Positions 45,232-49,380 of a DNA stretch of 64,000 nucleotides are shown here, in pieces. The DNA comes from Tuwongella immobilis (GTDB lineage Bacteria > Planctomycetota > Planctomycetia > Gemmatales > Gemmataceae): assembly GCF_901538355.1 (NCBI RefSeq), contig NZ_LR593887.1, positions 6,176,920 to 6,240,919 of the forward strand, given 5' to 3'. The position numbers and the translations under genes are program-made. The notes beneath the pieces were generated by a model. The model made no database searches. It saw nothing but the letters and a program-made list of their open reading frames with translations, and was not told where the DNA came from. Numbering within the stretch: position 1 is the stretch's first letter; each line of letters starts with the position of its first letter.

Positions 45232-46304
45232 TCACGTCGCCCCCTTGCATTTGTAGGGGTTCGTTTCGTTGGGTATGGGGTTGTTCCAGGCCGATTCCTC
45301 AATCCAACAATAAGGCGATGTTAGATCGACAGAGGTAGCTCGAATCCGGATGGCATATGGAATCTTATCGCTACCATGATAGAGCGGCTCGACTTCGTAA
45401 TCGACATAGCATCCGTCGAGGGCGTTAACCTGTTTCTTCACACGTTGCTCGATTGACTTCATCTGCAGATTGGCTGTACGTTGGCATAACGCAACGATAT
45501 TCGTATATTTATCACCAGAACCGCCAAGATCTTGAGCCAACAAGTGTCCCCGTGCAAGCGTATTCGGATACAACACGTTAATTCTCGTATCCCAGCCGGG
45601 CGGATCAACAGTAGCGTCAGACCCACCTTCAAGAATTGTCCGCTTGTTAAGTCTAGCACGAATCCCGGTAGGTCTGCCCATCCCATCAACAGGTCGGTAC
45701 TCTTTGAATGGAGTCTGCGTCGTGGAGGGGTTGGGGAAGCCCGGAACGTGCAAGGCGCTGGCGCCGACGCATTATGCACCAGCAGCCCTTGCTCCCCGAC
45801 GCGGTAGCAGTGGTCGCCATCGACCTCGATATTGTACACCGGCTCTTGCCCACGCTGCAGCAGGCTCGCCACCGCCACCACGACCCCAGCGCCCTCACCG
45901 ATGCCGCTGAGCCGTTCGCCGGGCTCCAGCTCGGCTGCGCTTACCCAGGCTCCGCGAGTCGCCGACCAGAGCGGATGATGTGCCGTCACGCCGATGATCG
46001 CATCGCTGCCGACCAGGCGCAGGTCGTAGACTTCCCCATGGCTGTGGCGGAATCGACTCACCACCAGACGACCGCGACCTATGGCGATTTCGGGGCACGC
46101 CTCGATCGCCGTCACGATCGCATCGCCCTCGGCTCCCATCTCGGGCAGGTCCAGACGCATGCTCTGGCCTACCGGCGGCACCGAATGGGCGATCATCCAA
46201 TCCGCACTGCGAAGTAGCTCGGCCTCCACCGAACCACCGCCATCGGGGTAGTCCCAGCGCAAGTGAACTACCCGATTGGAGCCCTTCCAAATGGAAATTT
46301 CCAT
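45232..46304 (-). pseudogene. Frameshifted polymorphic toxin (Hint segment + nuclease domain)
   Basis: Starting at 46304 (MEISIWKGSNRVVHLRWDYPD), the frame encodes the later half of a pretoxin Hint domain: EVYDLRLVGSDAIIGVTAHHPLWS, WVSAAELEPGERL, QEPVYNIEVDGDHCYRVGEQ, GLLVHN. Just after VHNASAP the reading frame is lost; one base away the sequence continues as HVPGFPNPSTTQTPFKEYRPVDG and a DNA/RNA non-specific endonuclease domain (ARGHLLAQDLGGSGDKYTNIVALCQRTANLQMKSIEQRVKKQV) ending at 45232. A single indel near 45755 is enough to break the fusion. The usual N-terminal Cys block of Hint and any secretion domain are absent. Confidence 0.75.
45872..46136 (-). repeat. Direct repeat partner of the Hint fragment at 43.5 kb
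   Basis: This part of the toxin gene and 43510-43795 share long nearly identical stretches in the same orientation (for example CACCACGACCCCAGCGCCCT and GTCACGATCGCATCGCCCTC). The left copy carries a small insertion. The two copies enclose 2.1 kb. Confidence 0.75.
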
Positions 46305-46321
46305 CCTCGCTGGTGGTGGGG

Positions 46322-46351
46322 CTGACCGGGGTGGAGAGGGGCGACTATACT
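46322..46351 (+). promoter_or_regulatory. Possible promoter giving a leaderless HAD transcript
   Basis: CTGACC (46322-46327), spacer 18, TATACT (46346-46351). Transcription would begin about 7 bases downstream, at the ATG itself (46358). The only purine-rich site (GGAGAGGGG, 46333-46341) is too far from the ATG to be an ordinary ribosome site. Confidence 0.35.
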
Positions 46352-46357
46352 GGTGGT

Positions 46358-47041
46358 ATGTCAATCCTGCTGTTTGATATTGATGGCACGTTGATCCGTA
46401 CCTCCGGGGCGGGGAAATCGGCCATGGAAGCGGCCCTTGCGGGGGTCTTTGCTGTCACCGAATTGCGAGATGAAGTCTCGTATAGCGGACGGACCGATCC
46501 GGCGATTGGATTGGATCTGCTTCGTGTGCATGGGATCGATCCCACCGATGCCCACAATGACTTGCTGCATTCGGCGTATTTGCAGCATTTGCCGACGTCG
46601 CTGGAGCGGTTTGGCGGCACCGTGTTGCCGGGCATCCGCGAGGTCATGGGGTTGCTTCATGGGCATCCCGACGTGCGGCTGGGGCTGCTCACCGGCAATT
46701 CCTATCACGGAGCGCAGGCCAAGTTGATGCACTTTGGTCTGTGGCATTACTTCCGATTCGGCGGCTTTGGCGATGGTCGCCACGATCGGGACGATGTCGC
46801 CCGGGATGCGTTGGCGGCGGCTCAGCAGTATCTCAATGGGCCGGTCGATCCCGAAACCGTGTATGTCATTGGTGATACGCCGTTGGATATTCGCTGTGCC
46901 CGAGCCATTGGCGCGAAAGCGGTTGCAGTGGCGACAGGCTGGCATCCACGCTCGGAATTGGCCGAGCATCAACCCGATTGGCTGTTTGATGATTTCTCCC
47001 AGGCCAGCGAATTGGTCGCCCTCTGGCTCGGCGTTCGTTAA
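46358..47041 (+). CDS. HAD family hydrolase (phosphoglycolate-phosphatase-like)
   Basis: A 227-residue protein with the HAD motifs: LLFDIDGTLIRT (nucleophile Asp7, second Asp9), GLLTGNS (motif II Thr), and VYVIGDTPLDIRCARAIGAKAVAVATGWHP (motif IV). The alpha-helical cap inserted after motif I places it with Gph-like phosphatases. Cytoplasmic; it probably dephosphorylates a small metabolite. Divergent from the toxin remnant; the next gene follows after 28 bases. Confidence 0.88.
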   Translation: MSILLFDIDGTLIRTSGAGKSAMEAALAGVFAVTELRDEVSYSGRTDPAIGLDLLRVHGIDPTDAHNDLLHSAYLQHLPTSLERFGGTVLPGIREVMGLLHGHPDVRLGLLTGNSYHGAQAKLMHFGLWHYFRFGGFGDGRHDRDDVARDALAAAQQYLNGPVDPETVYVIGDTPLDIRCARAIGAKAVAVATGWHPRSELAEHQPDWLFDDFSQASELVALWLGVR

Positions 47042-48088: not shown

Positions 48089-48913
48089 ATGAAACTCGAT
48101 TGGGAAACCGACCGCTCGCCCGACCAGTGCAATCAGGCACTGGCGGAGTGGTTTGCGGATGAATTCGAGGGCGAGCCGACCGAGCCGCCCCTGCCCGGTG
48201 GCCGTCAGGCAGCGCTCGCCGCGTTGCAGCAATATGATGCCAGCCACTACGGCAAAAGTCGCAATTTTCTGGATGCCCCCGTCTCCCAATTGGCCATCTA
48301 TCTGCGTCACGGCATGCTGACCATGCCCGAAGTCCGCGACGAGATGCGCCGCCGCTACGCTGGCTCACCCCATGTCATCGAAGAATTCCTGCGGCAGCTC
48401 GCCTGGCGCGATTTCTTCGAACATGCCCTGGAATACTACGGCGCGGCCCTGCAGGACGATCTGGAACCCGCCAAGCATTCCGTCCCGCGAGACAATCGCC
48501 TGCCCACCGACATCGCCAACGGCACCACGGGCCTGCCCTGCATCGATGGCATGCTTGCCGAATTGTTCGAGACGGGATATTTGCACAATCACGAACGACT
48601 CTGGTTCGCGGCGTATTTCTGCCATTATCGCGGGTTGGACTGGAAAGCCGGCGCGGAATTATTTCGGCAATATCTGCTCGATGGCGACTGGGCGAGCAAC
48701 TCCGCCTCCTGGCAGTGGGTCGAAAGCACCTTCGCCAGCAAGCCGTATTTCATGAACCAAGAAAATATCGCCCACTATTCCAACAAACGCTGGTGCCAGG
48801 GGTGCAAAGTCGTCTGCCCCTTCAAAGGCAGCTACGAACAGCTTCAGGTGAAATTATTCGATCGCGGCCGTGCCCCGTTGGCCGTCGTTCCCGGTAAGGA
48901 GGGGCGATCATGA
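48089..48913 (+). CDS. Photolyase FAD-binding domain encoded alone
   Basis: A 274-residue protein; ATG 48089 with AAGGGGAG upstream. It matches the C-terminal FAD-binding half of the cryptochrome/photolyase family: GGRQAALAALQQY, SQLAIYLRHGMLTMPEV, EEFLRQLAWRDFFEHALEYYG, LPCIDGMLAELFETGYLHNHERLWFAAYFCHYRGLDWKAGAELFRQYLLDGDWASNSASWQWVESTFASK. The N-terminal Rossmann domain is missing here but encoded by the next gene, which overlaps by ATGA. Probably repairs UV-induced dimers with the partner protein; inference. Confidence 0.85.
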   Translation: MKLDWETDRSPDQCNQALAEWFADEFEGEPTEPPLPGGRQAALAALQQYDASHYGKSRNFLDAPVSQLAIYLRHGMLTMPEVRDEMRRRYAGSPHVIEEFLRQLAWRDFFEHALEYYGAALQDDLEPAKHSVPRDNRLPTDIANGTTGLPCIDGMLAELFETGYLHNHERLWFAAYFCHYRGLDWKAGAELFRQYLLDGDWASNSASWQWVESTFASKPYFMNQENIAHYSNKRWCQGCKVVCPFKGSYEQLQVKLFDRGRAPLAVVPGKEGRS

Positions 48914-49380
48914 CCGCCAAGACGCTGATTTGGGTTCACGATCACGCCATCAGCCCCGATGATGTCACCCTGCGCAGCGATCCCACCGCGGTGGTCGTCT
49001 TCGTGATGGATTCCGCACTGATTGGCTCGCCGAAACCGGCCTTTCATCGGCTGCGATTTCTTTGGGATGGTGTAGTGGAACTGTTTCGCGGTATCCCCAA
49101 TCCGGTCAAGGAGTTGCGGAAGGGGAACTGCGTGGTCGAACTCCTCGCCGCCGCGCAAGAGCATGGCTGCACTCGGATGATGGTCACGGATCACCCCAGC
49201 CCGCCAATTCAGGCGGTGATCGCGGCGATGCGTGCGAAGATGCCCGTGCAGGTGCTGCCTCGCCCGCAGTTGACCCAATACCGCGACGAGCCGAAACGCT
49301 TTACCCGCTATTGGGATAAGGTCGCCAAGGAAGTGCTGGGGTATCAGCCCCGGAAGGCCCAACGCTTCCACAAGAATTGA
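48910..49380 (+). CDS. Photolyase N-terminal alpha/beta domain encoded alone
   Basis: A 156-residue protein beginning in the ATGA overlap with the FAD-domain gene. It matches the antenna-side Rossmann domain of photolyases: TLIWVHDHAISPDDVTL, VVVFVMDSALIGSP, FHRLRFLWDGVVELFRGI, and a strand-helix alternation to MMVTDHPSPPIQAVIAAMRAKMPVQVLPRPQLT. A normal photolyase has this domain first; here the order is reversed and the chain is cut in two. No signal peptide. Confidence 0.75.
   Translation: MTAKTLIWVHDHAISPDDVTLRSDPTAVVVFVMDSALIGSPKPAFHRLRFLWDGVVELFRGIPNPVKELRKGNCVVELLAAAQEHGCTRMMVTDHPSPPIQAVIAAMRAKMPVQVLPRPQLTQYRDEPKRFTRYWDKVAKEVLGYQPRKAQRFHKN

Follow-up and report, generated by a model that had tools for sequence, protein, structure and literature searches.

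Two overlapping photolyase-domain genes in Tuwongella immobilis

The window analyzed here is a stretch of 64,000 nt from the genome of Tuwongella immobilis (GCF_901538355.1, NZ_LR593887.1, positions 6,176,920 to 6,240,919), a genome that is assembled as a single contig. As summarized in Table 1, two consecutive genes on the forward strand encode the two domains of a photolyase as separate proteins. A preliminary description of this DNA had placed an FAD-domain gene ahead of a Rossmann-domain gene, and searches with Pfam, the PDB, and a family profile confirmed both reading frames and their order, which is indeed the opposite of that in ordinary photolyases. The ATGA coupling proposed in the same description was also found, as a four-nucleotide overlap accompanied by a perfect Shine-Dalgarno sequence.

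Table 1. Features of the split photolyase locus (positions in the window; gene coordinates include the stop codon)
Feature	Position	Strand	Length	Remarks
Gene 1 (P0001)	48089..48913	+	274 aa	Catalytic FAD-binding domain of a photolyase as a separate protein; Phr4/SPL type
Gene 2 (P0002)	48910..49380	+	156 aa	Antenna-type alpha/beta (Rossmann) domain of a photolyase as a separate protein; Phr5 type
ATGA overlap	48910..48913	+	4 nt	Gene 2 ATG (48910-48912) over gene 1 TGA (48911-48913)
AAGGAGG Shine-Dalgarno site of gene 2	48896..48902	+		Inside gene 1, 7 nt before gene 2 ATG
Cys151, putative Fe-S ligand 1	48539..48541	+		Invariant in ten-row alignment
Cys236, Cys239, Cys243 (CxxCxxxCPF), putative Fe-S ligands 2-4	48794..48817	+		Invariant in ten-row alignment

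The duplex of the gene 2 site with the canonical anti-Shine-Dalgarno sequence was estimated at -11.6 kcal/mol, versus -7.7 kcal/mol at the start of gene 1 itself. The strong site and the overlap together indicated that translation of gene 2 is initiated at a site of its own and is coupled to the termination of gene 1. Elsewhere in the window, an ORF on the reverse strand (45459-46364) was judged by eye to carry a HINT (intein-like) domain.

Gene 1 encodes an FAD domain with conserved active-site residues and four cysteines

The gene 1 product matched PF03441 (FAD_binding_7) with an E value of 3e-26, and its closest relatives in the PDB were the class I photolyases 1tez and 1owl (E=1e-21). Mapping onto 1owl revealed that the FAD contacts Y54, R107, N167, D198, D200, and N204 were invariant in 10 aligned FAD domains, as were W106 and W210, which we take to be the lesion-stacking pair; the lesion-stacking and tryptophan-triad positions of 1owl are those usually assigned in class I enzymes. 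Of the electron-transfer triad, two tryptophans (W185 and W208) were retained, and the outer position was occupied by Arg134. Since this arginine replaces the outer tryptophan of the classical triad, photoreduction, as judged from the alignment, must take another route. The first three of the four cysteines listed in Table 1 were spaced by 85 and 3 residues, exactly as reported for the Fe-S cysteines C169, C254, and C257 in Phr4 of Synechococcus RS9916.

Gene 2 encodes a photolyase alpha/beta domain recognized at the family level

As a single sequence, the gene 2 product scored under the Pfam cutoff against PF00875 (E=0.12), and a PDB search with it returned no significant match. The Rossmann assignment of the preliminary description was therefore not recovered from the single sequence, but it was from the family. 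All nine members of the gene 2 family alignment matched PF00875 (best E value, 1.3e-6), and the family profile retrieved the class I photolyases 1tez and 1owl at the top of the PDB matches over residues 28 to 157 (E=3.5e-4). Profile-profile comparison by hhalign aligned the family with canonical photolyase N-terminal domains over 137 columns (97.1% probability; E=4.9e-11), and the gene 2 profile, when run against 1,278 ORFs, also recovered the N-terminal domain of a canonical photolyase, L057 (E=1.2e-8). A moderate AlphaFold model of gene 2 (pLDDT 70, pTM 0.68), when submitted to Foldseek, ranked photolyase/cryptochrome N-terminal domains first (E=2.5e-4). Because the family profile, unlike the single sequence, matches the canonical N-terminal domain over its full length, we regard the identity of gene 2 as a photolyase alpha/beta domain as settled by family-level sequence evidence.

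The pair is distinct from the other photolyase genes of the genome

Three further photolyase-family genes are present in the T. immobilis genome. L001 is a photolyase of canonical domain order; L004, the second PF00875 gene, lies at 6160898, about 16 kb before the window, and looks like a class II CPD type; and L024 is an FeS-BCP-type gene and the single PF04244 match of the genome. Gene 1 aligned with L024 and L001 through partial matches of 24-32% identity (24% with L024), and BLAST of gene 2 against the other photolyase-family genes gave no match. The preliminary description had considered that the pair might be pieces of a full-length photolyase elsewhere in the genome; other photolyases do exist there, but they are distinct genes, and an origin of the pair from them was thus ruled out.

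Split, fused, and probably unlinked relatives occur in two phyla

The same gene pair was sought in Planctomycetota, as had been suggested, and it was found to be rare across the phylum (2/294 sampled genomes) and common within Gemmataceae, the family of T. immobilis itself (about 21 of 95 genomes). FAD-first fusions in one frame were present in 18 Gemmataceae genomes, the T. immobilis genome itself being split; gene 1 and gene 2 shared 58% and 47% identity, respectively, with the natural fusion L010. In G334, a Gemmataceae draft genome, the FAD gene and the Rossmann gene were located on different contigs, the latter flanked by unrelated genes, and the two halves are probably unlinked. Beyond Planctomycetota, FAD-first fused genes were carried by three Deinococcus plasmids, and split pairs with an ATGA overlap were found in five Deinococcota (Deinococcus sp. 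QL22 and four other genomes). Similar overlaps were observed in two other Planctomycetota, with TTGA in G451 and with a GTG start and 8 nt in G270. Every genome checked that had an Fe-S-type FAD gene also had a Rossmann partner, be it fused, adjacent, elsewhere in the genome (G334), or truncated (in G374, another Gemmataceae genome). The pair is not a chance arrangement, since the same two genes recur in the same order in other genomes of two phyla. No relatives of the pair were found in a search of viral contigs, and phage records yielded at most distant FAD-domain matches.

Several variants were encountered among these loci. At positions 4745-4943 of L012, from a Deinococcales MAG, the stop of the FAD gene keeps the ATGA, and the Rossmann frame starts about 195 nt later, behind a 41-aa ORF. 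Three copies of the system occur in G365 (L028, L055), two of which are extras that are broken or truncated. The split pair of G451 (L059, 1123-2666, reverse strand), with its TTGA overlap, encodes an FAD protein that lacks the Fe-S cysteines. In 14 Gemmataceae loci (L029, L030, L032-L043), a full canonical-order photolyase directly follows or overlaps the fused FAD-first gene; it is the ortholog of L001, which in T. immobilis is unlinked to the pair. A similar two-gene order was seen on a Persicobacter plasmid (L017), and a gene read from its sequence as a renalase-like FAD oxidoreductase adjoins the fused gene downstream in L009/L010 and upstream in L028.

Phylogeny and correlated distances of the two domains

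In the phylogenetic tree, the FAD domains of this group and those of SPL/NewPHL grouped together, apart from the canonical photolyase outgroup, with 100/100 support, and the gene 1 protein fell inside a Gemmataceae clade, also supported at 100/100, together with fused relatives. The topology requires at least three switches between the split and fused states. Distances among FAD domains and among Rossmann domains were correlated (Mantel r of 0.85; 0/2000 permutations), an agreement that fits coinherited partners, although linkage and shared descent alone could produce it. A further scenario, which we offer tentatively and consider doubtful, is that the two-gene state is old in this branch and that the reversed one-chain forms are repeated operon fusions, separate from the event that linked the domains in canonical order; if so, the FAD-bearing catalytic subunit and its antenna subunit would have come, as two proteins, from an FAD-then-Rossmann operon.

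A probable two-subunit photolyase and alternative explanations

The preliminary description had implied that the arrangement was new, whereas an inverted split form was already published in 2022. In marine Synechococcus/Cyanobium, Haney et al. (mBio 2022, PMC9426592) reported a split pair, Phr4/Phr5, and a fused form, Phr6, with FAD-first order and four Fe-S-type cysteines. Synechococcus RS9916 survived UV-C less well after loss of phr4/phr5, and the cloned pair protected phr-deleted E. coli against UV-C (PMC9426592).

We consider it likely that the T. immobilis pair is a split inverted photolyase of this kind, in which two docked chains would carry out light-driven repair of pyrimidine dimers. 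The gene 1 product would be the catalytic subunit, binding FAD, holding an Fe-S cluster with its four cysteines, and providing the pocket for the UV lesion, and the gene 2 product would serve as an alpha/beta antenna-type subunit. Because gene 2 has its ribosome-binding site within the last part of gene 1 and shares the overlap of its start codon with the gene 1 stop, the two proteins are predicted to be translated sequentially and in matched amounts. The chains may then dock, each forming one lobe of a single photolyase that would use blue/UV-A light to repair pyrimidine dimers. We lean, by a modest degree, toward CPD rather than 6-4 lesions as the substrate, since the pocket formed by W106, W210, and N167 resembles that of a CPD enzyme; Haney et al. 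predicted 6-4 repair from the cysteines (PMC9426592). Assembly into one enzyme has good indirect support from the FAD-first fusions, from the agreement of the trees, and from the published UV-C protection conferred by the Synechococcus pair, and the natural fusions likewise support an obligate partnership. An AlphaFold model of the natural fusion L010, built with a 7-row alignment, was too poor to show domain docking (pLDDT 60, pTM 0.37).

It appears unlikely to us that the FAD protein instead acts on its own as a short photolyase (SPL), with the Rossmann protein as an optional antenna or in a separate role. SPL proteins are described as lacking the N-terminal domain. They are a recognized group of the photolyase family (PMC9178010, PMC9498864), and the separation of the two genes in G334 would suit such an enzyme; however, the constant presence of a Rossmann partner in the Fe-S-type genomes, together with the conserved overlap and the fusions, favors obligate pairing. 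Still less probable is that the pair senses light in the manner of a cryptochrome instead of repairing DNA. With three other photolyase-family genes in the genome a repair role could be redundant, and the electron-transfer chain is altered, but the lesion-stacking tryptophans and the FAD-binding asparagine are retained, the Synechococcus equivalents affect UV-C survival (PMC9426592), and the pair itself contains no signaling domain or regulator.

Two other explanations concern the split itself. Programmed frameshifting, which Haney et al. raised as one option for Phr4/Phr5 (PMC9426592), would join both frames into a single chain of reversed order; fused homologues exist, and the overlap requires just a -1 shift. 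We nevertheless hold it to be very improbable here, given that a strong Shine-Dalgarno site precedes the gene 2 ATG at standard distance, that inspection of the overlap sequence disclosed no obvious slippery run, and that the required shift would vary among relatives, which have a 4-nt overlap, an 8-nt overlap, or, in Synechococcus, a 7-bp gap. In G334, frameshifting is excluded because the two halves are on different contigs. An assembly error or the decay of a fused gene would account for the fact that relatives of the same family are mostly fused, and broken or truncated extra copies are known from G365. Yet both frames are conserved, as seen from their identity to L010, the genome is one contig, and ATGA split pairs also occur in another phylum (Deinococcota); error or decay is hardly conceivable, and we regard it as ruled out by the Shine-Dalgarno site and ATG in place, the recurrence of ATGA, and the intact catalytic residues.

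Comparison with known photolyases

Canonical class I CPD photolyases (1owl, Thermus phr) consist of the same two domains, and their FAD- and lesion-contacting residues are mostly conserved in gene 1. They differ in being one chain with the alpha/beta domain at the N terminus, whereas the T. immobilis system comprises two chains in the reverse order, and they possess a complete tryptophan triad and no Fe-S cysteines, in contrast to Arg134 and the four putative ligands of gene 1. The four-cysteine pattern is shared with FeS-BCP, the prokaryotic 6-4 photolyases (PhrB); the latter carry a PF04244 DPRP N-terminal domain in one chain, and no PF04244 domain is present in the pair.

SPL and NewPHL/Phr7 resemble gene 1 in that their FAD domain is described as N-terminal, with no alpha/beta domain before it, and SPL/NewPHL FAD domains group with those of this family. 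The inverted order of NewPHL was reported in 2020. NewPHL/Phr7 is described as a single polypeptide that carries a "Z-domain" at its C terminus, whereas the pair here is split, and the Z-domain matched the Rossmann family only weakly (29% and 11%). Phr7 was reported to be without Fe-S cysteines (PMC9426592), of which gene 1 has four. At L060, from a genome of the same class, an FeS-BCP (PF04244-like) photolyase gene comes immediately after one of NewPHL type.

The closest counterpart is Phr4/Phr5, a likeness drawn from its published description. As in the T. immobilis pair, the FAD-domain gene comes first and the photolyase alpha/beta-domain gene directly after it as a second ORF, and the four Fe-S-type cysteines agree in the spacing of the first three; the third-to-fourth spacing is 6 in Phr4 and 4 in gene 1. 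Phr6 parallels the reversed-order fusions of Gemmataceae (18) and Deinococcus (3). The cyanobacterial genes are separated by a 7-bp gap, in place of which the planctomycete pair has the ATGA overlap and a strong Shine-Dalgarno site. A spacer of seven G-C base pairs is reported to separate the two ORFs in all picocyanobacterial pairs and to be absent from fused Phr6 (PMC9426592). This spacer is absent here as well; because fused Phr6 lacks it, we take it as a lineage trait, not as a defining one. By published description, gene order, and cysteines, the pair is thus assigned from its sequence to the Phr4/Phr5 kind, known since 2022. The present analysis widens the range of this kind to Planctomycetota and Deinococcota and adds the conservation of the ATGA coupling, a large number of fused forms, and the G334 case, which, being probably unlinked, favors two polypeptides over a frameshifted chain in the question raised in PMC9426592. 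The split reversed photolyase is therefore no picocyanobacterial oddity, and its split, fused, and probably unlinked forms in the two phyla provide natural material for testing photolyase function with the antenna domain as a separate subunit.
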